In this document: piece by piece, positions 8,901-63,815 of the stretch
Layout of the letters: each line of letters begins with the position of its first letter
Position numbering within the stretch: the first letter of the stretch is position 1
NCBI GenBank assembly: GCA_019843655.1
Contig: JACDQD010000006.1
Span: 6,812,034 to 6,876,033 of the forward strand
Source of the DNA: Lethocerus indicus
Lineage: Eukaryota > Arthropoda > Insecta > Hemiptera > Belostomatidae
Direction of reading: 5' to 3'
DNA length: 64,000 nucleotides
Program-made: the position numbers and the translations under genes
The notes under the pieces: model-generated
Told to the model about the DNA's origin: nothing
The model's input: the letters and a program-made list of their open reading frames with translations, nothing else
Databases searched by the model: none

Positions 8901-9663
8901 TCTAATCTGTCATCAGCCGCCAATCCGAAATTTCCTGATACCCCTTTCTCCGCCCAATCAATTTACCCCTCTCAGTCACCTTCTCGTCCCGCAAATTCGG
9001 GCTTTTGGCCGTCAGACATGCAGCCACCTTCCCCCGTCACGCCCCTAGGTCGAGGTACACCGGTCGACAGTTACGGCAGACCCGTGACCGTGGCTTATCC
9101 GTCGCAGAGTTTCGATACGTCAACCCCGGTGGCCTCCGCTCTACCCGTACCGAAAAATCGGACAGGCTTTACTGTAATGATATCTCGGTCAGGTGATAGG
9201 GTAATCCCTAATAGGGAAGGTAACTGGAAACCAGTTCCCATCCGGACTTCCGACACGGATAGAAGGGTTGTGGTTATTCATAGGCCCTCTCTCAAGTGTC
9301 CTCCCGGCGCCATTGGAATGTACCCACACGTTGATTGCGACAAGTTCCTCTCCTGCATTCACGGTCGAACTTTTGTTCTTAATTGCTCCCATGGAACAAG
9401 GTATGTCATCTGAATTACGGACGTCTGAACTTAAAAACGCTCTTAGCAGCAAATTATATTATTAACGTGTCGGTATTTTTTAACGCTATTATTAATTATA
9501 ATAATCGAATCAATAATTCAACCTGTTTTATTTGGTTTAAATTATTATTTATTGTTAAGGTTCCATCTGAGACGAGGGACATGCTACCACGCATCTGGTG
9601 TTGAATGCGGGGAAGACGGACGACACATTATCGATGCTGATTTGGAAGCTGATCTAGCAGCAA
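5907..9663 (+). other. teq: N-terminal chitin-binding and proline-rich region of the protease
   Basis: Exon 5907-6158 is a hydrophilic linker (ends AWPEENQ). Exon 7689-7944 encodes a peritrophin-A type chitin-binding domain: six cysteines in [39 protein letters not shown] and VTC. Exon 8051-8134 is His/Tyr-rich. Exon 8212-9400 carries the Pro-rich tandem repeats and the start of a second chitin-binding-like domain ([30 protein letters not shown]), finished by exon 9560-9663 ([11 protein letters not shown]). The second domain is split by an intron in phase 2. The cysteine pattern is what supports both calls. Confidence 0.85.
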
Positions 9664-21615: not shown

Positions 21616-21681
21616 CTAGGTGTCGGCATCGTAGCTCAGTGATGACTTCTTCATTTCAATCATCGGTAGTATTCCTGTTTC
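21616..21681 (-). CDS. Receptor last coding exon
   Basis: 21 residues plus TAG. Acceptor ATTCTTTAG|GAAACA in phase 0; reads [21 protein letters not shown]. Chosen because frame and acidic/Ser-rich ending fit a receptor tail. An alternative AG seven bases downstream would be out of phase. Confidence 0.75.
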   Translation of the reverse strand, partial: ETGILPMIEMKKSSLSYDADT

Positions 21682-24600: not shown

Positions 24601-27600
24601 TCTAGCAAAAGACCAAACCAGCTAGAGGAGACAGAAACACCACAAACCTACGATATTCCAACCCCTCGCTGACCACAAAACAGGTGTGTTAAACTAGTTA
24701 ATTTATAACAATATGAATATATTTTATAGATTTATTTTTCTGTCGAATTATTTTTCAGTAAAATATATCACACGTGTTCTTTCTTCTGGGTATTTCTGGT
24801 TTTTGCAATTGGATACGGATACAAGTTAGTAGAGGCTGAGAGAGTATCGTTTATTGTTGCCGCTTTATTAAACCTCCTCTGGCAATATTTATGTTTAAAG
24901 CCTTAGAGGCTGAAAAGGGTAGCGTTTATGGTTGCCGCTTTATTAGAACTCGTCTATCCCTTGTCGGGGAGGGGGTTAGGCCCACTGAGAGAAGGCTCGG
25001 TAGACTCTTGTGCGGCTTCTCGTGGTAAGATCTGATTTTCCATAACTTGTGTTACCGAGTTGTATTTGAGATCCTTAAATAAAAAAACGTTAATGTTCGA
25101 TGTTTTCACACGCGTGTTACGCCATAGTCTGAATATCGATCCTTTTTCTTAATTTTTTTTATATTTATGCGCTTGATAAGGCCAAAGTGGGTGCTACGGA
25201 AAGGCGTGGTGAAAAGAAAACAACTGACCTTTGGGAGTTGCAATGCCGTATCCTTTCGAGTCGAGGAGCCCTCCTATCTGGGTTAGGTTGCAGTCCCTCT
25301 GGACCGCGTAGTCGAGCATCGTAGATTCCATGAGGAAAGCGTAGTTTCCTTCGAGCACTCTCTTGATGCCCTCCTCGTACGAGCGGACGAAAACCGACGG
25401 CCTCTTACTCTCCATGTACCGCCACATTTTCTGGTATATACCGATCTTTGAGTCCTGCAAAACGACGACCTCTCTGTATTTGGGAACATTAGCCATGAAA
25501 ATGCAACATTTATTGTGAAACAACTCGAACGTGCGACCAATAGAAATCTAGTCCCCAAGTCTGCGAGAGGATTATAAATAAACTAAAATGAAATAAATAT
25601 TTCTTATCGTATAAGATAAAAAATGTTGTACCTTTGTGAATGGAATTCTGTCGAATTTAAACAGAAAATTGGAATCACTAGAATTTTATCGGTAAAGGGG
25701 GAAACCCACGAGACCTGCCGGATATTAACCCGGGGGTTTCATTAGGAACAGGAAACGCGTGAAAAATGTTGCCGGGCCCGTTAGACGGTGGCGTAACCTG
25801 GGCGTGTGCCCCCCCCCTCCCCCTCCCCCGAGCAAAGTAATAAGGAATTTAATTACAGACCGGTCCGAGGACAATTGCCGCGTGTCCGGAGCGGCCGCAA
25901 ATAAGAGGATTATACCGTTTATTCCGATTTTACGCTCTCGCGAATTTTACCGACGCCTATTTTAGCCGGCTTCGCTGAGCGGAACGGAGGGTTCGGACTC
26001 GATCCGCTGACCGGGAAAGTTAATTAGCCGGTGCCCCCTTCGTACACCCTCCCCTTTTTCTCCCGTCCCCAACCCCATCCCTTCTGGGCCGCCCTTCCAA
26101 GGAAACCCCCTCACCGCGGAATTCAATTATGTTCCGATCATTTAAATTTGGCCGATAATAATTTCCAGCTAAGCCATTTCTACCGTGTGAAACTGTTGGA
26201 CATGTTTTGCGGCCGGTTCCGCCCGGTCGTATAATTATGGCGGTTAAACGGAGCGGTGTTAATCTAATTTAAAGATTGAATTAACTCTGATAAACCTGGA
26301 TGTTTCGCTGGTTGGCCTTCTGATTTTTCCGAAACGGGGCCCGTGTAAATTGTGGACTTGGAATTGTGGATTTCCGTTTCATTAACGGCCGGGCGATGCG
26401 GTCATCGGTCGGTTTGGGCCGTCGGCTCGTCGGGCTTTCCTGCGGGCCGATTAAAAATGATCGGCCTCGGAACTCCGGCCTAGAGAGCTCTGAGGTGAAC
26501 TTCGGGCCGAAGGGAGTGGGCCCAATTAGCCGAGTTTAATCGCTAATTAAAAAGGGCCGTGTTAGAAATTAGCGGCCGGTGGAAGCGTGCCCGATAAACC
26601 CCGATCCTTCTTCCTCCGACCACAAATTGGTTCGCCCGAGGGACACAGGAATCGAGTCGAGTTTTAAATACCGAAGAGTTTGGTAATTGGGAAGCATTGA
26701 GGCTAAATTGTACGGTAAAAAATAAATTACCTTTGAATGTGCGATGTTAAACCTGTCGCCGGCTCAACCGGTCTAGCTTAGAGTCATACAAATAAGAGTA
26801 AATTGAATATCGGGGTAATTTTTCGAATAAAAAAATTAAAACTCTATAGCGCACAGAATAAACGACACTCATTTTCTCTTTCCCTTAATGAACCATCTAG
26901 TCAATTACTAAGGTTTCGGGTAAGCAGAGATTGTAGATAATAATAAACAATTAACACACCCTTTTCAGGACAGTATTCCTCTGCTTAATTTTATCTGGAT
27001 ATTTTCTGGCTAATTTAGTAATTTTTTAAGAAAAATTACATAGGCTTGTTTATAATTGCCGCTGTCGAAGCAGATTGATATCATAAACTAATTACGAGCG
27101 GCAGTAATTAAATACTCCGCTTGCTCATTAACATTAAGTGGAGTTTGGAGCAGAAATGAACACCGGCGGAGAATAATTTCATTAAAAAATAATCCAGATA
27201 AATTAAAGGAGATTGAAATATCCCTTATATCTTCCCTAACTGGAATCAAAGTAAAACTCAGTTATTAAAATTCCTTTTGATATGGGAGTTCGCTTCTAAT
27301 GGGATCAGTCTATATCGGTAACAGGACCGATTTTAATAAAAAATTATCACTGCTGGTCTTCCTTTAACATCTAACGAATGTCCCCACATCCGGATGTTAC
27401 TTATATCAGTAACGACGTGCTTTGTTCGTGATATTCCAATCACAAATAATAACTGACGATTCGGTGATATTTAATCGCGCGAATATTTGTCATAAAAATA
27501 GCACCGCGCGATTTGCTGACCGTAAGAACTGACCGTCTGTCATATGGGCGGGGTGGAAACGGAAGTCACCAAGAAAGATGGTGTTTCGAGGACAAAGCGG

Positions 27601-33600: not shown

Positions 33601-36600
33601 GGTGCCATATAATTTTCGTATTAAATTATTTAATGTCGGCCGACTGGTGAATATTATTTCGGTTGGTGGTGGGTTAAAGGGCAGGGTCGAGTTTATTTCG
33701 CTCACGCATTTTGAAAGAGCGTGCGGTCGTGCGAGGCCGCGTTTGTTAGCGCTCCCCCGGCCGACCATAATGAGAGTAGAAAATTTGCATACATTTTCCA
33801 AATTGAGCCCGAACCGCAATCGGTACGTCGCGTAGCGCGGCCGTTGGCAAAAAATGGTTCCCCTCTCCGCTTCCGGATTCCAGATTAATTTTTAGGCCCC
33901 GGCTGTTTTTTCTTCGGTCGTCACTGGGCTCGCTCGCGGCTGATTTATATTATCAATACGGTCGGTTTCGTGGAATGAACAAACCCGAAAATAATTAACC
34001 GTGAGGCGGGAAACCGGTTATTTATTAACCTTGTCTCGGTAAGACACTAACATTTCTGATCTATTCCCATCATATCATGGCATAATCCGTAGGTAACTTA
34101 TATATTCATTATTTTTAAATAATTTCATTCACCAGATACCATTGTTTTTATTAAAATTTAATTTTGAATTCTTTTTTAGGAAACACTCGATTATCTTTCA
34201 TAAAAAATATATATTTACACTGTTGTACGCCTTTGAAGGTGGCGATTTTATAATTCAACATTATTGCGTTTTGTATTCATTTAAGCCACGACTTTTTGGA
34301 ACTTTCTGTCTGCCCCCGATGATTTGATCCCCTGTTTGTCCTCTCGTCATCAGTAGGTAGCATTAAATCAGAAAATAGGACCGTGTTCGGTCGTCGTCAC
34401 GGACAACGGCCCTTGTTGATGTTAGAGCGGCATTTAACTGCAATTATAATTCGCCGACTAAATATCAAAGTAAGCCGAATATCAGTTTCTGACTGATCCA
34501 AATAAACGGATTAAACTGTTGTAAGCCGCGTAGTTTGGACGTTGTTGTTCGGAGCGATACTGTTATCCCGGGTCGGGGTTTAGAACAACTAACAGGGGCT
34601 GACCCGACCCCCCGCCCCAAATCCGTACAGTTTACCCGCTCTTCCGTCACTGGCTGCGAATTTCAGACTGTAAAAGCCGCGATTTCGGGTGCACACCTAG
34701 TTAGAGAGGTAGCTGCGGGACAAGGCGAGCGTGGCATTTTAATTGGAATAGAGTCAACCTAGGGGCCCAAGAGGAAGAGGAAATTATTGATGGAGTCACA
34801 TAATTCTATTGGTCAGTGAATAGGGCAACAGGGCTAACAGTCAGGAAGAAATCTCAGTACACTACATGTGACAATTAAATTCCATGCGATTGTGCATATA
34901 GAAGAAATGGGTGAACATTGCCTAGTTCCGACCGTTACCGAATCGAATTATTTCATTATTCATCAAATATAAAATCCCGGAAATATTTTTAATTCATTTT
35001 ATTCTAAAAAATATAATTTGAGATAATAAAAACCTAATTACATCATAGATTTCGTGTGTTTCTGTCTTCTCTCTCTGGTTTGGTCCTTTGCTAAACCGGT
35101 TTCGGCTGCTCGCCATCTTCAGTAGCGGTCACTTAGGCACTTTGGATGTTTTTTGGGCATCCTCACTGCACTGTCACTGCCACTTCTACTGTAAGGCGCT
35201 AATACTAAAATGTAAGACAGACCTGTGTTGCGGGCTAGTATTAGGAGCGCCGTAACATTGAAAATAGTAGCGCATTAAATGAATTCAGGTACGGCGCATC
35301 TAATACTAGCCCGCAACACAGGTCTGTCTTACATTTTAGTATTAGCGCCCGACATTTTAGTATTTTGACTGACACTACTGAAGATGGCGAACAGCCGAAA
35401 CCGTTCTAGCAAAAGACCCCAAACCAGCGAGAGGAGACATAAACACACTAAATCTACGGTATTCCAACCCCTCGCAGACCAGAAAACAGGTATATTAAAC
35501 TAATTACATCAGTATTCATATCTGTTAACAGGCTAATTTAATCTGTACAGACTAATTTAATAAAGAAACTAGTATAATATTCTATTAGGACTTATTACTG
35601 AAATTTCTTTTACAGGGACCTGTGTATTAAACACTTATTTGCCCATGTATTAAATTTATACGCCGTTATAAATGGAATCAAGCAACAGACGACTTATATC
35701 GCGGTCTATCCTTCGAGTCGTTTTAACCGGCGGTATTGAATCATTTTCAAGACGGGGTAGAAGATAACAAGATTAATTTTACTCGGATCCAATATCTCTA
35801 AAATCCTGCGCCTACGCGGAGCATCTTCAAAAGGAGGGCTTAATTTGTTTATAGGACGTTCTGACTGGAGAGCCGCGGGTATAGATTGCAGACAGAATTA
35901 AATTACCGCCCACCTCCGACATGGCCTAATGATTATATTCGTTTACCTGTTCCTTCGGCTACATTGGATTTCCGTCGAAACGTGCGCTCAGCGCTTCGCA
36001 CAATGTCGGAAAAGTATTTTTGTATCTTACGTACAAATTTAATATTGTAGGGATAGACCATCTTTTAATACTTCAGTAAATTGAGCTCAAAAATTTCGTA
36101 TTTAAAAATATTACAGTATTTTGTAGTGGTCGGAAGTTTCCGAATTCCCTGTTCTGAGTTGGCAATGAATACAAAATACTATTTTGACCTATGAATCCTT
36201 GCTTACGATCGTAATAAATCTGACGCTAATGATATGCTGGAGTTCACCGTTCATTCAATTAGTGACGGTGAGAAATTAACCCATTTCAACAGTTTTTACG
36301 CTTTCCAATCCGCATTGAACAAGTCTATATCGGTGATATATTGATTTTACTGTGTGGAAATTATTGAAAACTTCATTATAAAACAGCTGAAAATATTCAT
36401 GACATGTGGACGTTAGGAAAATAAAAGGAGAGCACTTACCCTGAAGAAAGTCATTGTCGATCCTCCTTCTAATGTGCCGTAGGCAATGTCCGTCTGTTCT
36501 GAGAGGTCGGCGGCGCTCTCTATCGGCGTGATCATCCTCTCGACGGTGAGGAAAGCTGCCAGGTTGGCCGTGTACGAAGAGATGATGATCAGCGTGAAGA

Positions 36601-39600
36601 ACCACCAGATGCCACCGACGATCCTCGTCGAAGTTGCCTGGAAAAATCCAATCCCGAGCATATTTTCCGAGGGTTCCACATTGCCGTATATGGAACGAGT
36701 AGTAAGATTAAATTACCCATATTGGGCACATATAGTTGTAATAATACAACAATAATATTAGTCTTACAAGCGACACACTTCAAAACACAGTACAGCCAGT
36801 AGTATTGTAATCCCTACTAAATACCCACGAAGCTGGTAACCCAAAGCTTTCCAAAATCGAGGACCGAAAAAATGGGCAGTTCGTAAATCTTACATATTTT
36901 ATTATAAAATATTTCTAGTATGATAATGTATTTTAAGAGATAATTTAGCACACGGTAATTATTAATTCGATAATTACTTCTGAGGCTTAATAAGATTTCA
37001 TACTTGAACTATAAAAGAACGACGAGTCGTTCGTTTAAACCAATTAATTTTTTTTTTTTTAATTTCTTTTCTTAAAATGAAGGGAAACAAATGCAGCCGC
37101 CGCGCAATGTCGCAGGACGATATTGTTCATTAAGGGAGTTTGAAACAAACTTTTGGAAGTCCGTAGGGTGTTGTAATTGAAAGAGTTTGGAAAGCTAGCG
37201 GTAATTAAAATTTACACAATTTAAACTTAAGTCGAAGGTAAATTATTATTAGTAGCTGTGAACTTTACCAAGAAATGTGCGGGAAATTAACAAAACATAG
37301 CCAAGTGTATTCAAAAAAGCTGTTGAATTTCTGCGTGAATTTATTTCAATAAATGCATTTCCAGTTGGTCAATTAGGGGTTGTGTGATAGGACTACGAAA
37401 GCGACAAGTGTTTTCCTATCGACATGCAATCTCTTCTACTTGTTAAGAACGCGCGAAGATGAAACTGAATCATGCAACTAAAATGCACAGCTAAATCATG
37501 CCTAAACATACATGGTACTACGTAGACGGTGGCCCTTAGCTGCCGACAGTGACAAGGGTTGTAAATGATACTCACAGGTAAACACACTCACGACCGCTGC
37601 GGGTTTCTCATGTTTTCCTTATAATGATCCTTAGTTATCTTTCATTGCTAGCGTCTATATTGATAAATTATTATTACAGGTATGTTTCGAATACAGGAAT
37701 ATTTCGGAATGAACTTTGGAATATGTGCTATCCTTTTATGTACCATAGAAAAATTCTTACTTTGGTATAGTGCTCGTATGTGCATTGTAAAAGTTTGAAA
37801 TACATTTCTAGAAACATCGACCTCCTGGGAAATAAACATTTACTTCACAGCCATATAACACTCTATTACAGTTCTTAGAATTATATGAAGTTCATAACTC
37901 CTGAAGAATTTAATTTGAGGCCGGTATTTCAGAATTACTTTCGCTATTAACATTAACAGCGGATGAAGACTGAAAATGCAGTGCAATAAAAATAGTCGAG
38001 CCTCACTATCTAAAATATTGCGTGGAATATATAGAATTCTCTCTTCAAATGGAATTTTTGTTATGATCCCTTCCTGGAAGAATAAACGTCACTATTTTGA
38101 AGTCTATATTTAAGAGTTTGGTAATATTGCCCCCTATAATGAGTGAAAGCACCAAATATTCTGTAAATATGAAATATTCATACAAAAACGAGTTTAACGA
38201 ATAAATATGGTACATTGTCTTAAAATGCCTTAACGGAAATGTAATTAAGTGCGAAATTTCTAATTCTGTACTTTTGCCTACTGCGAATGTCTACAAGCCT
38301 TCAAAGGACGAACTAATTTGGAAAACCGCTATCTAACAAAAGAATAAAAGAAACAAATATGTCCCTTACAAAATATGTGGCGCTTCTAATTAATAGGATA
38401 ATAGCAAATGTATTTAAATCGTAGTGTGTGGGAGTGTATTAATGTTAGGTGTTTGCAATCGTGGAGTCTTCATTGCCATTTCGTAACTTTTCATTCAACA
38501 ATATTTTCAAACGTGCCAAAAATTTCATATAGCCATAGATCGAAACTGGAATAATATTTAATTATCGAATGAATATTTTGACAATAAAAATTGCTAAGGG
38601 AGACTGGAAATAAGTGTCCTTAAATGGTAGTGTGAAAAATATATTAAAATATCATTCCCAGGTTTTATTAAGCCCTATTTTTTCTTGAGAAATGTTCTAA
38701 AATGGTTCGAAATATATTCCTGAAGCCATCGAGGCACCAAATTTGAGTTTTAGTACCAGAAAATGTTTCCTTTTATACAACCGGAATATTAGACCCACGT
38801 TGGTCTTATGATTTAAGTAGATGCGTTTTTATAAAATCACATTGTGCCTGAAATAATATCTTGGGTAGAAAGGATTTAACTTAGGCATTACAACTGGTCT
38901 TTAATAAGCATTACCAACGGTGCGAGAACGTTATTTAGAAGCCCATCCGGGCGACAGACACCTTTTAAAAGTTCAAAACCTGCTAAACCTCGGATCTATA
39001 GATTTATTTCAGCGTTTTCTTGTTCTTTTCAGTGTCATTTTATTGTGTACTGCAAATAAAATGATAACAAAGTACTGAGTTGTAATGCCCTTGTACATAT
39101 TTTTAATGCTAAAAGGCTGCGCGGAAAATAAATGAATTTAAGTTGATGGAGTTTGGGCTATGCTACAAAAATATATATTTAGATTTTTGAATATCTGTTT
39201 GGAAGTCCACTGATCTTTTAATACACCAAACCAGCGAGCGGAGACTGAAGATTACAAGAGGCATGTTACATATATTTCCAACGTGGCGGCGTGGGTCGAA
39301 CTGTGACGTAGTATCCAAGATAGTGTTCTCGATTGGGTAGGGCGGTTGAGCCCGGCCTAATTGGGGAGGCCTCGCCTTTCGTTAAATGGGAGGAAAAAGC
39401 CAATTAAGATTGGGTCGTGTCACGACCGTTTAATTGGTATTTTGTAATCCCTCCGGTTTTAATTCTAGCGGGCGAGGCCCGGGGGTCGCGCTGATTGCTT
39501 GCATTCAACCGATCGTACTGAATTTTAAAGCGGAAGCCCCATTGAACTAGCAGACATTGTCATTCACACGGAGGATCGGCTAATTTACTTTCAGTTTAAT

Positions 39601-42600
39601 ATAAGACGATTATCGCGCAATCAGCGAACAGTCGGATTAATATTTACGACTTTTATATTAAGTCCAAAATATTTCCAAAATAGAGATATTAACTCCATTC
39701 TGGGAATAGTGCGTGGTAGTGTCCCTCTAAGATTTTTCAACTACACCTGATTACGCTAGTGCACTAATTTACTGATAGTGCTAAAGATGGCGGGGAGCTG
39801 CAACCATTCAACCACCGGTTGAATTAAGAGAGTAGCGAAAGTCAAATTATTCCCAACCCTAGTTTACCAGGGCGTAAAAGCGGAAGGAATGCATTATATT
39901 TATAATACAATTTCTATTTTATGCGAACCAGTCTTTTAAAATTTGCTTATGCTCACAACGTAGAATTTGGGGAAGAATTTTTTTTAAATGGCCCAGAGCG
40001 TATCGCCCTAAGGGTGACCGCGTTATATGAAAGCGCCGCGTTCGGATTTAACGGTTCTGATCAAATTTTAAATATCTTGTTTCTGTTTACGACTGGTCGG
40101 ACTTTTACGACGGCGCGAAGTGCGGCGACGTTCGCGCCGAAAACAACCACTTGTCCGCCCCGGGCCGGTTAGGGGCCAATAAAAGTGTCATAATTCTCTG
40201 GGAGAATAGGCCCGGCCGTATTTTACGATGACTAACCTCGGAATTATTATAGAACCGATCACCGGAATTGTCAACGGTCAAAAAACAACAGCGTGGCGGG
40301 GGGGGGCGACGGGTAGGGGTCTCAGATTAAATTACGCGAGAAAAACCGTACCAGGCTCTGGGGTCGAATCGTTTCTGGACAACGTCCAAATTGAAATTAA
40401 TGAAAGGGCTAGTTCGGGTGTCGGAGCATTGCCATTTTCCTGAAATATTTATTTCCAATTCAAAATGAAGTTTATATATTTCTCCATATCGCGGGAATGA
40501 TCATTTTTATAAATCGAACGCCGATATTTCTCCTCTCTGCTTGTATTAGTTTCTATCAGTAGAATTACTTTATTTGTTTTTCTATTCCGCCTTTTATATT
40601 TTTTCAAAGAAAATATTTTTATTTATATATTATCGTTCACAAGTGTGCCATATTTCTAATTGACAATAATCTATTATTTTAATATTGTTTAATCGATATT
40701 GAATATCTTAAATTAAAATGTAATTAGACCGATAAATATATATTTGAAATGGGACCTTTTTTGAGTACTAAGAGACTAAGGGTGCATAATAAATATAAGT
40801 TTTGATGGGAATACAAGGCTAATTTATTATTTCATACGGACTATGTTCAAGATGGAATTAAAATAGTATCACCAATACCTTCTCCCAGCTCTCACCTATT
40901 AGGTTTGGTCACCGATAGGTTTTACCTAGTTGGCTTGGGTATCTATTCTACGTGGCTGGTAACAGTTTAGTGAAAACGGACTAACCTGGGTGTACACCAG
41001 TCGCTATATCACTGTGTTATCGCAATTCGAATTGAACTAGTAGCGGGGTAGGCTGTTTATATACACATTGCAAGCGTACTGTTCGGTTCGGTACGACGGC
41101 CGCGGCTTTCTTGTTTAATAGGACGGGCCTCAAAGTGAAAGCGGCCCCGGCTAGCCAAATCGAAAACGCTCTCCCCTTCACTCGATTATACCCCCGGACA
41201 GGATTCAATTCCGGCAGGACCCGGGCGTTCGGAGATGAACGCTTGTTTAAGATTAAACCGGCCGACGGGCGTATACATATATACTGCCATATCACCGCCG
41301 ATAACTATACCAATAAATGCTGGCGTATTTTATACTTACGTATAATTATTGTGTAAAGAAAATTTCTCCGTTCTCTCCTGCGCGCATACATAATAGGCAT
41401 AAATCAAACTACGACTATCGGCTTATACGCTGAACAAATGAATGCGTATAAAAAAATTTGGTGAAATAATTTTTATGCGTAAAATAAAATAATCGGCGTT
41501 ATTCGAATAAAATAAAAAATATGTTTTCGTCTTATGACTTTTAATTTCCCATTAAAAATTAGCCTAACTGTAATTTTTATGGGTACAGCTTTTTTTACAC
41601 CGATTTTTACACTTTTTCGGTTGAATATAAAATAATTTAAATTATACATATATTTATTGACTTATTTAATCCAGTTGTGAATTGGGGGACTGAAATTTTG
41701 AATATTTAAACGTTAATTTCTACAGAATTCCTTCATTCCGATTTTGGCAATACAACACAGTGTGAAAATCCGTGACTCCCGTTATGTATATTGTGTAATG
41801 TCTGGTGTGTCCGTGGAATTTCTGGGGTTATTATAGGGGGCATTATTACCTTAGGGTTGAGCTCAGAACCCTGCTGCATTAGCGAGCCGATGGTGAACCA
41901 GAAAGCGTTGCCGAGCGTGAAGTCGTTCTCAAGTACGAGTAGGGAGGAGAGCAAGTGCTCGTGGTGCTCCTCGTGCTCGTGCCCGTGCTCGTGCTCGTGC
42001 TCGTGGAGGTGTTGGAGTTCGGCAGCCGAACAGGGGCAGACCTGGGGCGGGCTCCACTCCCTGGGCGAGAACCTCGCCACTGTCCATATGGTCAGCGAGA
42101 CCATCACGTAAGCACCGACCATCCAGAGCCAGATCTCACCGGCCAATGGGTTCAGGAACGAGAACATCCGGTTGGTTATCCTCTCGCTTGTCTTCACAAC
42201 ACAACATCCCTTCTTTATCTCTACAGCCCGTTCTAACATCTTACCCAACCCGTATAGTGAAGGTGAAATTTTCCATCAGGTCAAATTTATGCAATTAGTA
42301 CATAATTGTTTGCCATTACCATGCTTTTACAATCGTATACCATTTATTTCTTTATGGGCGTATAAGAAACGCTGACCTATGGTATTTCCCTTCCGTACTC
42401 AAATACTCACCACCATTTAAAATTCTTCTTTAAGAATATAGGCGAATTCTACAATCTTATTTACTGAAGGTTGAGTTTTTTTAGATACTTTCACCTGTGT
42501 AATTTACTTTAACGCTACATTATTTGAATAATTGCACTCGTTATATGGCACAAATAGTTTAAATATATGCTGCGAATGTTTATGAAATCATTAAATATCG

Positions 42601-45600
42601 ATAATAGTCGATAATCGCCGGTAACATCGCTCTATAATTGGAAAGTCGATTCGATAAAGTGAAGGCGACTGAAAGGTGAACAAAAATCTGAAGATGGTTC
42701 AAAGGCAAATATGCAATTCTTAATATCAAATACGATTTATTTTAAGTAAGGCGGCTCTGATTAGGTTCCTACGTAGAATGTTATATGCACGATATAACTT
42801 TTATAAGGGCGACCCCGGAGTCTATTGAAACGTAGTCCCTGCAAATAGAGCAACTGTTAGGAGGAAACAGGAAATTGAGGAAATTCGAAGAAAATATAGA
42901 ACGGCGGGACCCGTGCCCATCTCAAATTTACAATGATAAGATGTCGCAACCGACCCCGTCCTGCTTGGGCTCGGACGAGGTTATAAATAATAGCTCGGGT
43001 TTAAGGAAACCTCATTATGATAAGCCTCCTAATTAGATTCTAATCCCCATTCGAGAGCTTCTTCTCGTTTTAGCGTCCTTTGCCCGCGGCTTCATTAAAT
43101 CCTTGAAGTGCCATAAAGAGGGGATAACCCGACTGAAGTGTGCGCAATAAAAAAGGGGCCTAATCTACGGGGTAGGAAATTTAAAAGGCCGTGAAAAAGA
43201 GGTTAGCGCGTTGAGATATGTTTTATCTGTATACTTTTATGATAATTAACCTTTTTATTAAACGGACCGATGCAGTGAGAATCGCATGGATCTAATGAAG
43301 CTAAAACAAAAATATCTCAATATTTTCAAACTCTATTGTATAAACCTCCCTTACACGGCTGGATTTTCGGTCGGAGCCCTATGCCTTAGGATGGCGGGCG
43401 AGTCAACAATATTAAAACTTTGTATTTGTGGCTAGCCCTGTAACGATTCTGACAAATGTTTGGAGACGCTTAAGAGTTGAGCGTGATGGGCGGTGTGCGT
43501 GTGCGCGTGAGAGGGTAGTTGGGGGCCCGTCTAATGAACTGACCCGGTGTTTGCGCTCTGTGATGAGAGCGCCCCGACGCCGAGCACGCCCAACGCCGCC
43601 CTGAATATGGATCCACATTACCATCGGCTTCCGAGGCCGCATATTGGAGTGCGCACCAATTGGAATCGGAGCGAATATTTTCAGCGGGACGCTCAAATTT
43701 CGAACCCATCCGACCGTACCAGGCCGGCCGTAGGCCTAGGAAAAATCATTCATGGAATGCGATATTTCATATACGGCTCGTCGTATTGTGAAACGGAGCT
43801 GTCAATAATGAACTATATTTTGTGGGCACTAAACCACCCACACCCGGTCCACTGACCAGACGGCCACTGACCCGAATTATATCTATAACAAAAAATACAA
43901 TACAATAATTTGAACAGTAAAGAAGATTAATACTTCTTTAATTGTCAAATTAAAAAAGTATAGGAATGATTTCTGCACTTCAAGTGCAGTTAAAATGAGT
44001 TCAAGCAATACAAGACACAGACGATAACAATGGTCACAATATAGTATATTGTCTCCGTCAACTTATTGTTTTTTCCGAAGCCATTAGAATAACTCAATGT
44101 GTGAATGAATATATAATTAGCATTTATTACTATGTTAACGTTACGTCGTATGGTTTTGTCGAGTTTTAATGGCAAGAACTAACTTTAAATTCGTATTTTA
44201 AGGTAAAAACTGCAAGAGTAATTTAAGAAGATGTAGATTTTATAAACGGAAACTATTACAGAAAAAGTCACATTTAGAAATTATACCATGCCATTTCCCT
44301 GAAATTAATATTCTGTATCTTAACGAACATAATAACAGTAGATAGGGTAAATATAAAAACGTAATATTCTTAGAAAGTGTGACTGCAAATTTTAATTAAT
44401 TGAGTTATATTGAGAAATATTTTTACGATTCGTTTGTTGCAGGCAACGACACTACTACTTCACTCCGACACTCAACGAGAGGGGTCAACGCCTTGAAATG
44501 CCTTCGGCGGCAACGACCTCATTACAGGAAGGGCAATAAGTGCTAACGGTTTTGTCACTGGACTGTTGACCCTTTGGGCTCCCCGATCAGGCTCACGCCG
44601 ACCGGCAATGTCCAAGATCAGAAATAAATACTGGACCGCTTCTTCCACGAGTGGTATCGGCCTCGGGCTATTTCACAGCATAAAAGTTATTTTTATATAT
44701 ATAAAGATAGCCCCCACTAGGCCGCAGACAGCCCACATTATTTGATATAGTTGGTTATGGACTGTGGATATAGAAGTCGGTACGTGATCGAGCTGTGTCA
44801 TGTACACCTGACCGTCACGCTTCAGGCCCCTCCACAGGCGCACAGGCGCCAGGTTAGCGGCCGCTAACACGTGCGGCCCCACTTTTATTGCACCATAAAA
44901 CGAGATCGGAATACATTTTTGAATAAGCCTCTGTGATATTCCCAGACACTCTATCAGGTAAAATTAAAATGAGCATTTGCCTGTCAAAAAATTTACATTA
45001 TTAGTTCTCGTAGTAATTAATTATATATTTGATGAACTGGATATTTGATGTACTATACTAATCTGATATATAAATTCATAATTTTTAGCCTTTCGATTTA
45101 AAAGCTTCAGATTTCACTATTTGTTAAACATTCCATTACAAAATAATATGATGCATGTATATATATATGTGTATATACGACTACATATATTAATTATATA
45201 ATTATTATATATTAATTTTTATTAACATTATTTGTAAATAATGAACCGGACTCTTGTTTAAGAATGAACACGGCGAGAAGTCGGCAAGCCAGCAATACAG
45301 CAGTGTTGTGCGTTTATTATTACAGGGCGCCGGTTCTCACTCGGGATATATGAGACGGGATAGTTTAGTGTTTTTGTTCGGGCCCTCCTGTTCTATTTCT
45401 TTCCTTCAGTAATTATTTTATAAAATCATTTATATCGGTCAATGCGCTTTAATAATAAAAAGGAATTATTTAAAAATAAATATCCGGTATACAACCCGAT
45501 AGTATTTTCCATGAAGATTCCTTTCCATCACTCCTTTGTTTAATATCTCGGAGGGTAAAAGTAAAAGAAATGGGAATTTTGAGATTGACATAGAACAGAA

Positions 45601-48600
45601 TGCGTATAACGGTGAATAGGCCTACCTTGGGAAATTTCGACGGTGGCCGAATATTTGGAGTTGGAGGGGAATTTCGGTTGATGAGTGCCAATTTAGAACC
45701 CAATATTACCAAAAACGCGGGAGGCCTACATAACGAGGTTTCCGTTTAATATGACAGACGTGTTTGCTATCACTTTCTAAAAAGCAGTGTTTTCTTGAAC
45801 TGATAAACAATAACAAAGAATTAATGTTTAAACTATAATAAATAATAAATAGCGCACCGCCTTATAAAATACCATTAAATATGAATTAAAAGCCTCCTTT
45901 AGCCGTGTATTTAATTTTTCCAAGAGGACAACATTTTTCCACATTTCAAGGATTCTTCAGGTGCACTATAAAGTGTGGAAGATCCTTATTAGCGAAATAA
46001 GAAAAAGAGAAATATTTTTAGAATTAAAGGTACTAATTAAAAATTGACTGTACGGCTGTTACGATAATGTGTTTCAACACATTGGTAGAGCAGGGAAATA
46101 AGGCAAACCCCGTCCATTTTTACGAGTCTATTGGAAAAAGTGGTAACAGTTTGCAACATTGTCTTGGTGTAGCAGTAACACGTTTAGACATGTATGCGTA
46201 CAGCTTTATACCTTTTTGAAAGTAGTCAAAATTCTTCAGATATCCCGTTCGAAGAGGAAGCAGCAGGGGAGGAAGTGTAGTGGGCTAGTTTCTCCGGTCG
46301 GATTGAAACGGGGTTAGAGGTTGGTATCTGAGTTTGGGGGGGGCGAGTGAAATATGCGAGCGGGGTCGGAGGGTATGTGTCAGCCGGTGTTGTAATGTTA
46401 GCCGAGGGCGACACAATGCACGGCCTCCACCCCGCCCCCGCCGCCTCTCTACCCGAGGCAAATTGGAGCCCCCTTTGTCGTCAACCGCCCAATACCTCCA
46501 GACCAGACCCGGTACCCAATATACATTGATATACGTTCATTATCCACTGTCTGCCAGACTCAAGATCTGAGACTGTCAGAACCCTGCCGGAATTATAGAA
46601 AAAGAACTAGAACAATTATCGCTAACTTCCCCCTTGGTTAGAGGGGGTTGAACCCCTGCTAGTTTTCTCCCGCGTTTTGTAACCACAGTTTTTTTTTCAA
46701 CAAAAAATTCAATAAGGATATTGGATACATTATCGGTACAGAATCGTTCACAGTAAATAGAGGAAAAAATAAGACATAATCCTAAGAATGTTAACGACAA
46801 ACAAACTTTATTTTGATTCACACTCAGAATGGCCCATAGGGTAATGGGCGAAAAAGCAAAAAAGGGAAAAATCTTGGACTACAGTGCTACTAGGTGTTAA
46901 ACACGTGATCCTGATTCCGGTTATTATTGTCTGAAATTTAGAAGAATAAAATTAGATAATTTTTCGCCTTCTAATTATACATGGAATTAAAATATGACCG
47001 ATATTTTCTTAAGGTAAACTCCGTTATCAATTCTTAATAAGCTATCGGGTTTTTGTAATTTCTTAACTTGTTACCAAATCTCGATTTAAGCCAACATGCC
47101 GTTGTGGGCATAAAGTGAACGGGCATAAAATTGAATCGTTTCTCGAATACGATTATCCCCAATTACCTGACGAAGTCTCGACGGCCGGCTAAAACAATCG
47201 GCTGATCGTTGTTAAGTCAATACACATCGCAATTTCGGACCGTCGGACGCTTGTCCCGGGAACCGAATTAGGAGGGCGGCCGGTGGCCCTCTCGTAACGC
47301 GTTTAACATTAGCCCCGGCCAGAATTTCGTTTGTACCCCGTCGAAGGGACGTCGGTTCATTCGGCCCAACAAACGAAATATAAATGGACGGGGATGGAGA
47401 CAGAAACGAAATGCGTACTATAGGACAGACGCATCCGTTATACCCAGTCGCTCTGGCGATTAGCTTAGCTTGAATGTAGATAACTGAAAGTAAAAAGTAA
47501 TTTGTTTATTTTTAGGTTTAGCAAAGAATTGTTCGTTGCAAGGAACTGTACGTCAACGCGAGAAATACTACAACATTCGCAGAGACCACGTGCATAAATA
47601 ATGTAATAATTATTTGAGAAACTGCTTCTCATTTATAATTCTTTTTATCCGTTTCTCAATTTCTGCCAATCGACATTATGCCCACTCTCCGCTTTGTGTT
47701 ATTCTGGCCTCGAATCAGAGACCAGAGGACGTTGGTAATTCAATATGTGAAGATTCTCAGGGGAACGCGGTTTTCTTTCCTGCGGTTTCCAGCCACAATA
47801 AGGACGTGCGATTAAACTGCGCCGTGAAAACCACAGTATGCAGACAAAGGACACAAAGGAACTCAAAGAAAAAGGACTGAAAAATCAACAAGATGTAATA
47901 ATTAAGAAAGTATTCTTCCCGACGGGGATTGGAAATGAAATTGCTTTGAATTATTGAGCGGGTTAGTAAAACGGAGGGGGCTTTTAACGCCGCATAAAAA
48001 ATAGTTGGACGATATAATCCGCGAAGATTTGATGCAACCTGTTGTTGATTAGCTTTCACGGCCAAGAGATACGGACGGCTCCCCCGCGGGCCGTTCCAAG
48101 TTAACGGCTCGACTGGAACTGCAGTTAATCATTAATTTCAGCCCCCTGCAGCAACGCCCAATCGCAGGGCGGGGTTGGGGGGCACCCGAGAGATCTAGCC
48201 CAATAACAGGTTCTGCTGTTGGGAGCAGTCCAAATTTTTTGAAACAGTCCCCGTTGAGAGAATCGAGTGATTAATGAATTTCGTTCGTGTTCTGAACATG
48301 TCGTTACTGCGACGTTACTCTCCCCGAAGGGTGATTCGTCCTCATTATCGGCATGTTCTCTTGTGAATGAAGTACAAATTTTATAATGCAATAATTTCAA
48401 CGTTGGCGTCCTTTTGTTTTACGGCGTCTATCTTTTTGAAATTGAAATACACTCACGAACAATATGAACTCAATGGGTACTAGTGCCATTTTAATTGTTT
48501 TCGATATGTATTCACGTAATTCATAGTAGATATGAAGAAGTTTCATCCGAGTCACGGTCCAATCTCCAGTTAGAGACCCTCGTTCGATTAATGTCTTCAC

Positions 48601-51600
48601 TAAGGTATATAGTACCTCCTTGTTCTAGAGCAACTTAAAACCTTCATTGCATTGGGATTAAAACTCCAATATTATGAATCTACAGATATAATATTAAGAG
48701 AAATAAAAATTACTATGGTAGTCACCGAGTGTTTCAGAAACTCTCCCACCGACACCGATCTTCTCCGTAGTGAGAGGACGCACATTCATCTCTGAAAAAT
48801 TGATATTTACATAAACATGCCAATGAAATGAATCACCGGTTAGAGTTTGACGGCGATACCTCGGACGGGAGAGGACATGCTATAGCGGGCATTCCCAAAT
48901 GCTTAAAAAGAGAGGGTAGTATGCAAATAGCGGGAAGCAAAACTCTTGTAGCGTCTTATATCCAAACGGGAATAGTTCAATACAAAAAACGGTCACAACA
49001 GTTAGTCATGCAAGAGTGGGGGTTTTTGAAGTTTGGCCGTCGGGGCTTCCCCGTACCTTGGGGTTGAGTCCAGAGCCCTGCCTGAGGAATGTGCCCGTGA
49101 TGAACCAGAAACTGTTCGAGACCGAGAACTGGTTTTCGACGACGTGGGCCTCGGGCGAACAGGGGTGGGGGTTGTTCCACTCGTAGGGCGAGAACCGGGC
49201 CATGACGAACAGCGTGAAGCTGACGAGGAGGTAGGCGGCCAACACGTACAGCCAGATCTCCACGGCCAGCGGGTTCATGAATGAAAACAGTCTCGTCGGC
49301 TGCGACGTCGGCACCTGCCCTCACACAACCAACCCTCAAACTCACACATGTTTTATTTCAATATTTATTTCACGCTCCCGAAGAAAAAAAAGGTTGATTT
49401 CGAAACAGCCCCCCACCCCGAGTGCGCTAAAAGTCTGTTCCGATATTCGTAATTAAATAGTGAATTTATTTAACAGAAAATATGGCATTCGATCGGCACA
49501 CCTGTAACCCGATATTAGGGTCCTCGTTGGGCCTAATTTTAATTTTCGTAAGACATTTATTTTACGCCAAATAAAACGATGAAAGCGTTTTCACTGACCG
49601 TACCTGAAATCAAAAGTGTTAATAATACAATATACAGCACAATGTTTCATCATACACTTGAATACTACAAATGGCACTATGATTTTAAAATAAACGAGTT
49701 ATCGTCATTCGACCCCGAGCTTGTGTGACTTCACGTACTTAACAAATATTTACACATCAATTTAAATAATAACATGCAACGAACAAACTTAACGGAGTCA
49801 CTAGGAAAAACACGATGTGAGAATAAATAGTGCGGTCATTGTAGGCCTGAAATTATAGCTCACATGACTGAAATTTATTCAAATCGTAAAATCAGTAGTT
49901 GCAAAACATCCAGAGTGTGTGCGCGTTCCATCGGCGCAAAAAGTGCGGCAAATCCTTTTCGAACATGTGAGGTGGGCGGAACTAAAGGTGATTTCATACT
50001 GTAAATGGGCGGTTCGATTAACCAATTTACAATCCACTCTTGTTCGAACAACTTTACAGGGTAATATTCAGCGGCCTCGTGCATTTTTTTGAACAAAATG
50101 GAATTACTTTGTTTTTAGATTCAACAAAATTTATACCCGCCTCGCGTACTCTGTTCCGAGTTGAAAATTAGGCAGACTTAACCGAGTGGGCTCGGCTCAG
50201 CGCTAATAACGGCTTGTTGATAGTGATTTATAATAAGGTTCATTAATATTGTACGGATGGTAATGGCGATGGACCCAAACGGTGGTATAAATCTGAACAA
50301 GATTGCTTTCAATCGAACGACGCCAGGTAGTTGATTTGTCTATCTATTGGTCAAATAAAGTAACATCTGAATAATTAGTTGTTGAAATTAATTGATAGAA
50401 TACTCGACTCCTGGAATCCGCTCTATTGTATCTGACTGCAATTTGCTATGTAATATTGAATTCATATACGGAAGGACATCGAATTATATTCTTCATATTC
50501 TGACAAGGATGTAATGCTTTGTGTAGAGAGTCAATAAGATTGGTTTGGATGTATTGTGGTATGCCCTAATGGGGCGGGCTGCCGCGTTCTCGGTCAATGG
50601 GTTCTGCGGGCCTTATTATTGCCGATAGGCGGGGCTAGAGCTCAGAGCCAGCGCTGTCACCGCCAGCTTCTGAGGCTTCCTCCAACCCCTTCCCTACCGC
50701 TCAGTCTCGCTCAACTTGTTTAACAATTCACTTCTCGAGTCCCGTATTCGTTTTCGGTCATCGCCGCCTAATGGGCTAGATAAGCCCCCCTCCCTCCCAC
50801 CGATTCGCCTTCGGTGACGGTCGTTACGTTCACAAACGTTTCCTTCATAATATCCGCCGTTTTATTCCCCGGAGAAGTTATCTTGAATTTCAATTGAGTC
50901 GTAGGTGTCTGCGAAAACTCGCTTTCCCCGTTCCGAAATGGAGCCGTCAGGCACTTGAATATCTAATCGACTGAGTCTAACCCTCGTTTAATCTAGTAAA
51001 ATTATCTCAGCAAATAATATTAATGCTTAATGCAGATATATAATGAAAATAGTTAAAAAATGTTATATAAAACCTACTGTACGCAATAGTATTGTATTGT
51101 ATGAATAAATCAGTTACCGGCCAATATTGAGAGCAAAACTTTCATACATGCTAACCAGATGAGATAATCGAAAGAAGATGGTATTTTTTATTATATATTA
51201 TATTAAAATACTATAATTTAGAATTCAACCGTTAAAAATTATATTTATTCACGATATCCATGATATGAATACATTCCTAGTTATTAATTGCAATCAATTT
51301 GTACAACGTCTCTGTCAGTATCAAAATTTCTTAATTTATCGTTATTTGTTCCTTATGCTATCAACTTCACACGTGAGATTTATTCGTTAGAGCCTATGTG
51401 TATTGGGCTTTATATATTTTATTCTATGTAATGTAATTTTGTTCGATACTGAAAATGAAAAGTACGAGCGAAATTTTCAAAAACTTTAAAATATTTAACT
51501 AAATATATAAACCGGCAGAACACCAATAACAGTGAACTGATTGCAATAACACGATATCTCGTCTGCAGCAGGCACGTATGTTTGCTCTACTAACTTACAT

Positions 51601-63600: not shown

Positions 63601-63815
63601 AATCTACGGTAAAATTCTGATCCTTTACATACCTGTATTATAATTTCCAAAACAAATTAGATGTTAACTATACGGTCAAGGCAAATAGCTGTTAATTGAC
63701 TTCGGTTTACCTTGAAGAGGATGCCGATACCGAGGTTCATAAAGGGCTTTGTGAAATCGATGACGCTCTCACGTGCGTAGTTGATGGTCATTGAAGCCAC
63801 CGCCAAATCGGCCCT
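21616..63815 (-). CDS. Kainate-type ionotropic glutamate receptor subunit, C-terminal half (N-terminal part outside window)
   Basis: Ligand-gated cation channel of the kainate clade. Minus-strand exons in transcript order: 63815-63711 (end of S1), one of two alternative M1-M2 exons (49314-49057 or 42191-41850), 36637-36440 (M3 and start of S2), 25454-25229 (S2), 22890-22726 (end of S2), 22544-22444 (M4), 22153-22001 and 21681-21616 (C-tail, stop). Phases agree at every join: 423 residues with the 49-kb exon, 451 with the 42-kb exon. Glutamate-binding features are present: Arg in INYARE (S1), Thr in GSTMTFF and Glu in AFLMEST (S2). The M3 gating motif SYTANLAAF is intact. The C-tail has [11 protein letters not shown] and ends [12 protein letters not shown]. 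Introns reach 14 kb. The amino-terminal domain and early S1 lie beyond 64000. The exact insect orthologue is not assigned. Confidence 0.92.
22001..22153 (-). CDS. Receptor exon: cytoplasmic tail, first part
   Basis: 51 residues, phase 0/0 (GGTTTCAG|CAATCT; AATGGG|GTAGGC). Encodes [16 protein letters not shown], a basic Cys-rich stretch and [15 protein letters not shown]. If the donor is not used, the frame continues 22 more residues to a stop at 21932-21934, a possible alternative C-terminus. Confidence 0.85.
22444..22544 (-). CDS. Receptor exon: transmembrane segment M4
   Basis: 101 nt, phase 1 in and phase 0 out (AATTTCAG|GTGGAG; GATAGG|GTAAAA). Encodes [20 protein letters not shown] followed by [12 protein letters not shown], the membrane-proximal basic stretch of kainate receptors. 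Confidence 0.93.
22726..22890 (-). CDS. Receptor exon: end of S2
   Basis: 165 nt, phase 1 in and out (TGTACAG|GTTCAC; ATATAG|GTGAAA). Encodes [32 protein letters not shown] and the family-typical ALGVENIG just before M4. Confidence 0.94.
   Translation of the reverse strand, partial: VHPGGTKYRWPFWSFRRKELFRYCTTNGGKIQGTSATGTTRTKSRRPTLWESKI
23501..24696. mobile_element. Foldback element, copy 2, carrying a minisatellite array
   Basis: In the receptor intron between 22891 and 25228. Same outer inverted repeats as copy 1 (left from 23503, right to about 24652) and the same 3' tail ending TTAAACTA. Flanking direct repeats GTTAATTTATAA at 23489-23500 and 24697-24708 are exactly 12 bp. One arm motif (CTAATACTAAAATGTAAGAC) occurs on both sides of an internal array at 23714-24300, then the usual hairpin arms follow. 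Confidence 0.88.
23714..24300 (+). repeat. 70-bp minisatellite array inside foldback copy 2
   Basis: Units begin GAACTTTAGTTAAGTACATT at 23714, 23784, 23854, 23924, 23995, 24065, 24135, 24206 and 24277 (last one partial), period 70-71 bp, about 8.3 copies. Two sub-variants partly alternate (GTGTACCCAAC versus GTGACCGCAAC at the unit end), pointing to amplification of dimers. Confidence 0.95.
24846..25080 (+). repeat. Interspersed repeat family 2, copy B
   Basis: Longest copy. The block TTGCCGCTTTATTA occurs twice (about 24857 and 24932), so there is an internal duplication. It continues GGTTAGGCCCACTGAGAG and, about 70 bp on, AACTTGTGTTACCGAG, then ATCCTTAAATAAA, which resembles a 3' tail. 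It lies just beyond foldback copy 2, upstream on the receptor strand of the end-of-S2 exon. Confidence 0.7.
25229..25454 (-). CDS. Receptor exon: central S2 ligand-binding lobe
   Basis: 226 nt, enters in phase 0 (TTTTGCAG|GACTCA) and leaves in phase 1 (CCAAAG|GTCAGT). Encodes [18 protein letters not shown], then [19 protein letters not shown] with the ligand-contacting Glu, and [20 protein letters not shown]. Confidence 0.95.
29536..29770. mobile_element. Decayed foldback/minisatellite remnant
   Basis: A single degraded minisatellite unit in plus orientation at about 29536-29575 (GTGCACCCAACGAAATTTTG), then one in minus orientation at about 29684-29727 (ACTAGCGCCCCACTGAGGGT) running straight into the foldback terminus (CCGTAGATTTCGTGTG, then CTCCTCTCGCTGGATTGGTC). 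No target duplication could be defined. Confidence 0.65.
29765..29970 (+). repeat. Degenerate tandem repeat, about 50-60 bp period
   Basis: Repeated pattern of TTTTTCGTCAAAAAAACCCC followed by GCCTAAAAACCGCATTTCTG, recurring about three to four times with substitutions and indels. In a receptor intron. No coding sense. Confidence 0.7.
33260..33420 (+). repeat. Interspersed repeat family 2, copy C (5'-shortened)
   Basis: Begins at TATAGCCTTAGAGGCTGA, lacks the first block, then GGATAGGCCCACCGAGCG and TTTGTGTTACTGAATT; collinear with copy B in its second half. Confidence 0.65.
35046..35499. mobile_element. Foldback element, copy 3
   Basis: In a receptor intron. Left end TAGATTTCGTGTGTTTCTG; right end near TCTACGGTATTCC with the usual tail ending TATTAAAC. 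Inner arms around 35195-35254 and 35288-35347 are inverted copies. Flanking direct repeats CTAATTACATCA at 35034-35045 and 35500-35511 are exactly 12 bp. No array inside. Confidence 0.88.
36440..36637 (-). CDS. Receptor exon: M3 and start of S2
   Basis: 66 residues, phase 0/0: acceptor TTTTTCCAG|GCAACT, donor TTCAGG|GTAAGT. Begins [14 protein letters not shown] and carries the gating helix [16 protein letters not shown], then [18 protein letters not shown] and TMTFFR. It receives either pore exon. Only one copy of this exon is seen in the window. Confidence 0.95.
36638..41849. other. 5.2-kb receptor intron between M3 and alternative exon A
   Basis: Mostly AT-rich. A GC-rich block at about 39280-40400 has no supported gene. 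A short piece resembling the foldback terminus (ACCAAACCAGCGAGCGGAGA) occurs near 39227. No third pore exon was recognised here. Confidence 0.45.
41850..42191 (-). CDS. Receptor alternative exon A: M1-linker-M2 pore with Gln at the Q/R site and His/Glu insert
   Basis: 114 residues, phase 0/0: acceptor TTGTGAAG|ACAAGC, donor CCTAAG|GTAATA. Eight lead-in residues (TSERITNR) precede MFSFLNPL, exactly as many as in exon B. M1 is [21 protein letters not shown], then ARFSPREW. The linker is 28 residues longer than in exon B and holds a histidine/glutamate-rich run ([17 protein letters not shown]). The M2 loop is [17 protein letters not shown] with Gln at the Q/R site (codon CAG 41874-41876) and Glu at +4, the standard calcium-permeable arrangement. 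The acceptor assignment is the one phase-0 AG giving an 8-residue lead-in; its pyrimidine tract is weak. Confidence 0.87.
41950..42015 (-). repeat. Hexanucleotide (GAGCAC-type) repeat coding His-Glu dipeptides
   Basis: Imperfect GAGCAC/GAGCAT tandem units on the coding strand within alternative exon A. The six-base period codes for alternating Glu-His, so length changes keep the frame. It lies in the M1-M2 linker, which is cytoplasmic in this receptor family. Confidence 0.85.
42192..49056. other. 6.9-kb intron separating the two alternative pore exons
   Basis: AT-rich with GC/CpG-rich patches at about 42900-43800, 46240-46520 and 47090-47420. The only notable ORF is at 44673-44960 on the minus strand (separate entry). 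No further copy of the pore exon was recognised in it. Confidence 0.45.
44673..44960 (-). other. Unassigned ORF with a C-terminal membrane-like segment
   Basis: Minus-strand open frame of about 90 codons, possibly entered through an acceptor (ATATCACAG|AGGCTT near 44931). Protein pieces: [37 protein letters not shown], then the hydrophobic [18 protein letters not shown] and a stop at 44673. I recognise no family. It could be chance, an old retrocopy, or part of an unknown nested gene; it lies in a GC-rich patch containing a NotI palindrome. Confidence 0.2.
49057..49314 (-). CDS. Receptor alternative exon B: M1-linker-M2 pore with Arg at the Q/R site
   Basis: 86 residues, phase 0/0: acceptor GAGGGCAG|GTGCCG, donor CCCAAG|GTACGG. 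Opens VPTSQPTR then LFSFMNPL; M1 is [20 protein letters not shown]. The linker ([13 protein letters not shown], then [14 protein letters not shown]) is canonical for kainate receptors and has no insert. The M2 pore loop reads [15 protein letters not shown]: the Q/R-site codon is AGG (Arg, 49081-49083) and the +4 residue is Gly instead of an acid. The acceptor tract is G/T-rich and pyrimidine-poor. It is open throughout with no frameshift, so it does not look like a decaying copy. Confidence 0.88.
51957..52530 (-). pseudogene. Jockey-like non-LTR retrotransposon, 5'-truncated 3' end
   Basis: On the minus strand, a reverse-transcriptase C-terminal remnant: [20 protein letters not shown], then [17 protein letters not shown], the conserved jockey-clade block. 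After a frameshift the match continues in other frames ([19 protein letters not shown]; then [13 protein letters not shown], the usual C-terminal ending). A 3' UTR and an A-run (T10 at about 51957-51966 on the plus strand) close the element. 5' truncation and frameshifts show it is dead. Confidence 0.85.
56770..56870 (-). repeat. tRNA-like SINE or tRNA pseudogene fragment
   Basis: On the minus strand, a perfect pol III B box (GGTTCGAATCC) lies within a five-pair T-arm, CCGGGTTCGAATCCCGG (56791-56807). No matching acceptor stem or clear A box at the right distance, so not an intact tRNA. A tRNA-derived SINE remnant is most likely. Confidence 0.5.
62288..63611. mobile_element. Foldback element, copy 4, carrying a minisatellite array (reverse orientation)
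   Basis: In the first receptor intron of the window. The asymmetric tail is at the left (TTGTTTTGTGTTCTGCGAGG), so the element is inverted relative to copies 1-3. Outer inverted repeats lie at about 62336-62440 and 63480-63611. Flanking direct repeats AAAATTCTGATC at 62276-62287 and 63612-63623 are 12 bp, with one further matching T that fits the element end. Inside: a minisatellite array and an A/C-rich stretch. Confidence 0.87.
62454..63158 (-). repeat. 70-bp minisatellite array inside foldback copy 4
   Basis: Ten units; the motif GCGGAAATGTACTTAACTAA recurs at about 62475, 62546, 62616, 62688, 62758, 62828, 62898, 62968, 63038 and 63108, period 70-72 bp. The unit is the reverse complement of the array at 23714-24300. 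Central units are the most alike and edge units the most diverged. Confidence 0.95.
63711..63815 (-). CDS. Receptor exon: end of ligand-binding lobe S1
   Basis: 35 residues, phase 0 at both ends: acceptor TTCGCAG|AGGGCC, donor TTCAAG|GTAAAC. Contains [16 protein letters not shown], with the Arg that contacts the ligand alpha-carboxyl in this family, then [18 protein letters not shown], the approach to M1. The acceptor has a good T-rich tract, unlike the two alternative exons downstream. Confidence 0.93.

Follow-up and report, generated by a model that had tools for sequence, protein, structure and literature searches.

A 64,000-nucleotide stretch of the Lethocerus indicus genome (contig JACDQD010000006.1, positions 6,812,034 to 6,876,033; hereafter the window, with position 1 its first letter) includes part of a gene for a kainate-type glutamate receptor: its 3' half runs on the minus strand from 63815 down to 21616, and its 5' half lies beyond the window. 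This gene contains two homologous exons, B and A, each of which encodes the first membrane segment (M1), the M1-M2 linker and the pore segment (M2), and the two differ in the selectivity filter itself, where exon B has arginine (R) and exon A glutamine (Q) at the Q/R site. We think it very likely that this is one gene with a duplicated pore exon, that each transcript takes one of the copies, and that the Q/R choice is hard-wired in the DNA. Splicing would place one copy or the other between the end of the first ligand-binding segment (S1) and M3.

An earlier note on this DNA had proposed two minus-strand M1-linker-M2 exons 6.9 kb apart, and both are present and translate as it described: exon B at 49057..49314 (minus strand; 258 nucleotides, 86 amino acids) and exon A at 41850..42191 (minus strand; 342 nucleotides, 114 amino acids), the latter with a long linker rich in histidine and acidic residues. 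Each has AG before it and GT after it, a length divisible by three and phase 0 at both ends. Each starts after the ILFK of the S1-end exon (63711..63815, minus strand; donor AAG followed by GTAAAC) and ends in LNPK directly before its GT, so the phases and the LNPK ends are as the note had them. Its count of eight residues before an FSF(M/L)NPL block needs correcting: nine residues precede FSF in each exon (eight precede L/M-FSF). The S1-end exon and the M3 exon (36440..36637, minus strand) are the upstream and downstream partners common to both pore exons, and profile scans found one of each in the window. Joined as S1-B-M3 or as S1-A-M3, the exons read in frame without stops. Exons B and A are homologous neighbours that match in phase at either end and have common flanking exons, one of the features expected of a mutually exclusive pair.

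The profile scans covered 1565 six-frame segments of at least 25 amino acids, shorter segments lying outside them. A profile of the pore unit had two above-threshold matches in the 64-kb window, exons A and B. A second profile, built from 17 relatives, matched eight of the nine pieces of the gene and nothing else above threshold; the last coding exon, with 21 residues, is below the length limit of the scan. Pfam PF00060 (Lig_chan) matched in both pore exons, with the M3 exon also present, and the best solved GluK2 chain matched exon B at 1.5e-30 and exon A at 1.4e-17. Chance likeness of the two exons to a receptor pore is excluded. Among the 60 matches listed for each exon, chains of kainate receptors 1, 2, 3 and 5 (a group in which 7ysv and 7ysj bear only the name 'Glutamate receptor') all outranked the chains named as AMPA receptors. 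The product of the B form was 97% identical to the kainate 2 proteins of Rhodnius and Halyomorpha over 95% of the query. Judged by such likeness, the receptor gene is closest, among the matches listed, to the insect "kainate 2" genes.

The filter of GluK2 is lined by the side chains of Q621, which is the Q/R site, and of E625, which lies four residues further along (+4), according to an excerpt of PMC11599716. At these two sites exon A has Q (codon CAG) and E, and exon B has R (codon AGG) and G. The earlier note had held that the two channels would differ in their pores; the pore residues do differ, and the swap at the Q/R and +4 sites had escaped it. RNA editing was considered as the source of the R in exon B and is ruled out: ADAR editing at this site converts a genomic CAG, and the R of exon B is not made in this way because its codon is already AGG in the genome. 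For the CAG of exon A, a search for an editing partner, in which the last 80 nucleotides were compared with the next 3 kb, gave a longest exact complement of 8 nucleotides.

The pores of relatives were found with a pattern that left the Q/R and +4 sites free, and the two sites nevertheless went together. Each of the 137 R pores carried G at +4, whereas the residue there was D in 145 of the 147 Q pores, E in one and N in one. In an alignment of 24 species, both filter sites were fixed in 24/24 B exons, and the A exons had Q together with D or E in 24/24. Exon B was tightly conserved (mean identity 0.91; extracted units of 84-86 residues), and exon A was looser (mean identity 0.62; units of 85-195 residues).

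Across the 24 species every A exon can be told from every B exon at ten positions, which include both filter sites and the residue before the Q/R site. Apart from the Q/R and +4 sites there are eight such fixed differences, M1 containing some of them, and the linkers are of very unlike lengths. From this one might suppose that the two exons differ mainly for assembly, trafficking or the binding of auxiliary subunits, through M1 and the cytoplasmic linker, and not for permeation. We regard this as unlikely, though not far-fetched, as the fixed differences also strike both filter sites, whose roles in permeation are known. The M1-M2 linker of exon A has, at 41955-42005, a hexamer repeat of 8.5 copies that encodes mainly His-Glu, and other His-rich stretches occur at the same linker in Macrosteles, Bemisia and Daphnia. 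Because His-rich stretches recur there, a linker loop that senses metal or pH is conceivable.

To see how relatives use the two exons we relied on public gene models. The 221 proteins that we classified are all those from two lists of the best 120 each, one from a search aimed at exon B and one from a search aimed at exon A. They comprised 72 with R only, 84 with Q only, 63 with R and then Q, one with R and R, and one without a match to the pattern, and these counts are not prevalences, because each list holds the best 120 of an exon-aimed search. At least two of the Q-only records (P0102 and P0113) look like paralogues, and so does the record without a match, P0008 from Culicoides, which has a QTGSD pore. 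Three records (P0017, P0085 and P0106) contain another M1 block, with a pore that escaped the pattern, and were counted as single; this check covered the first 120 proteins. The R-and-R record, P0107 from Bombyx mandarina, the one lepidopteran record noted, has exon B repeated identically and no exon A, and both of its pores are within the 137 counted above. Its doubling of exon B is probably an error of assembly or model; a flawed model and a real absence of exon A there are both conceivable (exon A in Lepidoptera was not searched for).

When best-matching pairs of B-only and A-only isoforms were compared, they were identical outside the exon in seven species: Halyomorpha, Tribolium, Neocloeon, Cloeon, Ischnura, Bemisia and Diorhabda carinulata. 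The paired isoforms of Macrosteles, and those of Ceutorhynchus, also differ elsewhere by a few residues. Exon B is the sole difference between an A-only and a tandem model of Daphnia, and exon A the sole difference between a B-only and a tandem model of Anthonomus. The earlier note had suggested that other insects be searched for the same pair of exons, and both exons, in tandem or in separate isoforms, were found in 61 species, four of them crustaceans, among the matches listed. Alternative use of exons A and B by one gene is thus supported, as annotated, by the public gene models of relatives.

The two exons also appear to be old. In a tree of 52 pore units and 94 columns, which has long branches and leaves many forks open, the 24 B exons formed one clade (100/99) that included the four crustacean ones. 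The 20 insect A exons came together (88/91, unstarred), with L. indicus exon A grouping with those of Halyomorpha and Nesidiocoris (99/96), and three crustacean A exons were left unplaced by the tree. The simplest story would be that the duplication predates the split between insects and crustaceans, and our reading is that the splicing-coded Q/R switch may be at least as old as that split. After the duplication, B would have taken R and G and then frozen, and A would have kept the ancestral filter as its cytoplasmic linker drifted.

Several observations weigh against the use of one pore exon per transcript. The joins S1-B-A-M3 and S1-M3 are likewise in frame and without stops; since double inclusion and double skipping both stay open, the reading frame does not enforce the choice of exon. 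The isoforms of relatives are database gene models, most of them computed. In 63 of the 221 records, from 56 species, B and A stand in tandem, always with B first, and five of these records are of Drosophila takahashii. The 3' splice sites of A and B are purine-rich (pyrimidine fraction 0.39 each), the acceptor of exon A ends in AAG, and the linker of exon A holds the hexamer repeat. On the tree, finally, the A exons are not one group, and a starred branch (95/92) puts the Daphnia A exon on the side of the B exons and of three paralogue rows that lack R. The mutually exclusive splicing put forward in the earlier note is supported as alternative exon use, annotated in the seven species whose isoforms are alike outside the exon, and is less secure in its strict form, as 63 of the 221 proteins hold both exons.

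Taken at face value, the tandem records and the frame that stays open through them would mean that B and A are normally included together, so that the subunit has its M1-M2 unit twice, or is dead or dominant-negative. We consider this improbable. Given the topology of ionotropic glutamate receptors, a second M1 would be expected to invert the chain and leave the second ligand-binding segment (S2) inside the cell. In Halyomorpha, Tribolium, Neocloeon and Ceutorhynchus the tandem models are accompanied by isoforms with a single pore exon, and the contrast between the exons at the Q/R and +4 sites, which holds throughout, suggests two working pores. Because an extra M1-M2 should put S2 on the wrong side of the membrane, we read the tandem proteins as probably mostly merged models, other model errors or non-working transcripts. 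P0005, P0006, P0012 and P0099 are tandem examples among the public kainate 2 models.

The splice sites raise another possibility, that one of the pore exons is a relic or cryptic exon that L. indicus does not use. Both 3' splice sites are purine-rich, and exon A has in addition its AAG acceptor and repeat-filled linker. For comparison, the pyrimidine fraction is 0.50-0.78 at the other six exons and averages 0.51 (standard deviation 0.13) before any AG of the region. Purine-rich 3' splice sites fit regulated exons, and equally weak ones. However, the frames are intact over 86 (B) and 114 (A) codons, and the GC fraction at third codon positions is 0.90 and 0.82 in a window of 38% GC. Both exon starts match the point, after ILFK, at which the Halyomorpha isoforms diverge, and both pores are of types kept in relatives. 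We therefore see only a slim chance that either exon lies idle. The idea that A or B belongs to a second, interleaved receptor gene is close to refuted: insects do have further kainate-type paralogues (P0102 and P0113, listed as kainate 2-like, are examples), but the scans of six-frame segments of at least 25 amino acids rule out a second gene or a second M3/S2 set, as the S1-end, M3, S2 and M4 exons occur in the 64 kb as a single set, and relatives' isoforms share their flanks and other residues, so that the objection raised in the earlier note, that exon B might go with another M3/S2 set, fails.

If one pore exon is chosen per transcript, something other than the common devices would have to make the choice. 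Neither the reading frame, nor a short intron, nor U12 sites fits as the source of exclusivity; the last two are ruled out by an intron of 6.9 kb and by GT-AG ends at S1, B, A and M3. A candidate is found at the 5' splice site of exon A, where 21 nucleotides (41830..41850, minus strand; last exon base to +20) form one arm of an inverted repeat whose other arm lies in the A-M3 intron (38120..38140, minus strand), with 20 of 21 positions paired. The best ungapped score at this donor was 18, compared with a maximum of 13 in 30 shuffles and 9-12 at the other seven splice sites. With up to three mismatches allowed, the 21-mer matched only its own site and its partner in the window (0.01 matches expected). 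Three results argue against the duplex. Among 599 windows taken from the region, 7 attain a score of 18, and six of those 7 belong to a single other inverted-repeat family; the energy of −32.4 kcal/mol was bettered by 16 of 120 control windows; and the donor and acceptor of exon B find partners of −35.8 and −35.2 kcal/mol. Since 7 of 599 windows reach 18 and eight sites were tested, the chance of such a match at the exon A donor comes to about 1-10%. We treat it as a candidate only, seen in one genome; it could hide the exon A donor and so make B the default. An Rfam scan at gathering scores gave 0 matches.

Expectations for the two channels can be drawn from the known effects of the Q/R site in GluK1 and GluK2. 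In these receptors, according to excerpts of PMC13221535, Q-to-R conversion reduces calcium permeability and turns inward rectification into a linear response, the unitary conductance of the unedited forms is ~25-fold larger, and edited and unedited forms co-assemble; certain kainate receptors pass chloride (PMC13221535, excerpt). The exon A pore, with Q and an acid at +4, would be expected to be calcium-permeable, of higher conductance and blocked by polyamines. The exon B pore, with R and no acid at +4, would be calcium-poor, of low conductance and without polyamine block, and its filter should be more positive than that of edited GluK2 because the +4 acid is lost. We infer that L. indicus uses both exons, one at a time, and that its channels differ accordingly. 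In tetramers with A subunits, B subunits would tune the mixture, giving graded behaviour from one gene. A bolder picture, which we offer tentatively and with considerable doubt, is that of a switch dating back at least to the divergence of insects and crustaceans, in which A passes calcium and B, two charges more positive per subunit, acts in mixed receptors as a graded brake that is near-silent or partly anion-conducting, and in which folding of the RNA over the 5' splice site of A controls how far A is used.

The closest parallel is Q/R editing in vertebrate GluK1 and GluK2, which concerns the same residue and the same Q and R states and from which an effect in the same direction on calcium permeability, conductance and block is expected. 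GluA2 is another vertebrate receptor with RNA editing at the Q/R site. In contrast to vertebrate editing, the R of exon B is genomic and sits in an exon of its own, splicing would make the choice, and the exon swap also changes the acidic +4 residue and eight further positions. AMPA receptors have flip and flop, two homologous exons used one per transcript, in the part of the ligand-binding domain before M4. These too are a homologous exon pair in an ionotropic glutamate receptor, whereas the A/B pair swaps the pore itself. In Drosophila cac (Cav2), mutually exclusive exon pairs likewise widen the functional range of one insect channel gene (PMC11828482, excerpt), but they concern the voltage sensor and an intracellular loop, and the A/B pair concerns the selectivity filter of a ligand-gated channel.

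The exons are not new to databases, because database models already separate the isoforms: insect and crustacean models named 'glutamate receptor ionotropic, kainate 2' contain both exons, which several species have in separate isoforms, and the entries, as displayed, carry no comment on them. We recognized no description of the A/B pair in the literature searched, which consisted of titles, the beginnings of abstracts and some passages, and took in few subscription journals. CG11155 figures in the available parts of PMC5042512 and PMC10664524 for expression or enrichment only, the available parts of PMC3923563, PMC12295206 and PMC12788803 do not mention the pair, and the main text of PMC6307864 has no word beginning with 'splic'. 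Mutually exclusive exons are known, as is Q/R control; an exon swap that combines the two appears to be undescribed in the literature searched.

The receptor gene runs in the order S1-end, B, A, M3, S2a, S2b, M4, C-terminal exon and last coding exon with the stop. Downstream of M3, and all on the minus strand, profile matches place S2 exon a at 25229..25454, S2 exon b at 22726..22890 and the M4 exon at 22444..22544. The C-terminal exon, which ends in HING, lies at 22001..22153, and the last coding exon, of 21 residues and a stop (21616..21681), was placed by likeness to the C-termini of relatives. The S1-B intron has, beside the S1 exon, a 99-nucleotide inverted repeat (62348-62446 and 63495-63593, 1 kb apart and 92% complementary); a partial stretch related to it lies near 39209, and it is perhaps a small transposon. 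In the S2a-S2b intron, recurring short frames with one motif (23700-24250, minus strand) suggest a tandem repeat of ~140 bp. Tail to tail with the receptor gene, at 7689-18222 on the plus strand, are open frames that match chitin-binding (CBM_14), SRCR, LDL-receptor A and trypsin domains, and which together we take to resemble insect Tequila/neurotrypsin. Between the chitin-binding and SRCR frames is a long open frame of Pro-rich repeats in units of ~22 amino acids (8205-9410, plus strand).

The Q/R site is a classic control point of calcium entry through glutamate receptors, which vertebrates adjust by RNA editing. If our reading is correct, the conserved exon swap of insects and crustaceans would be a separate, DNA-encoded solution, open to cell-type control by splicing, and it offers a way to test by what means kainate-receptor calcium entry is regulated in arthropod neurons. 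There are also practical consequences: users of the tandem kainate 2 models may get a wrong topology, and cloning a single isoform of the kainate 2 gene could miss half its physiology.

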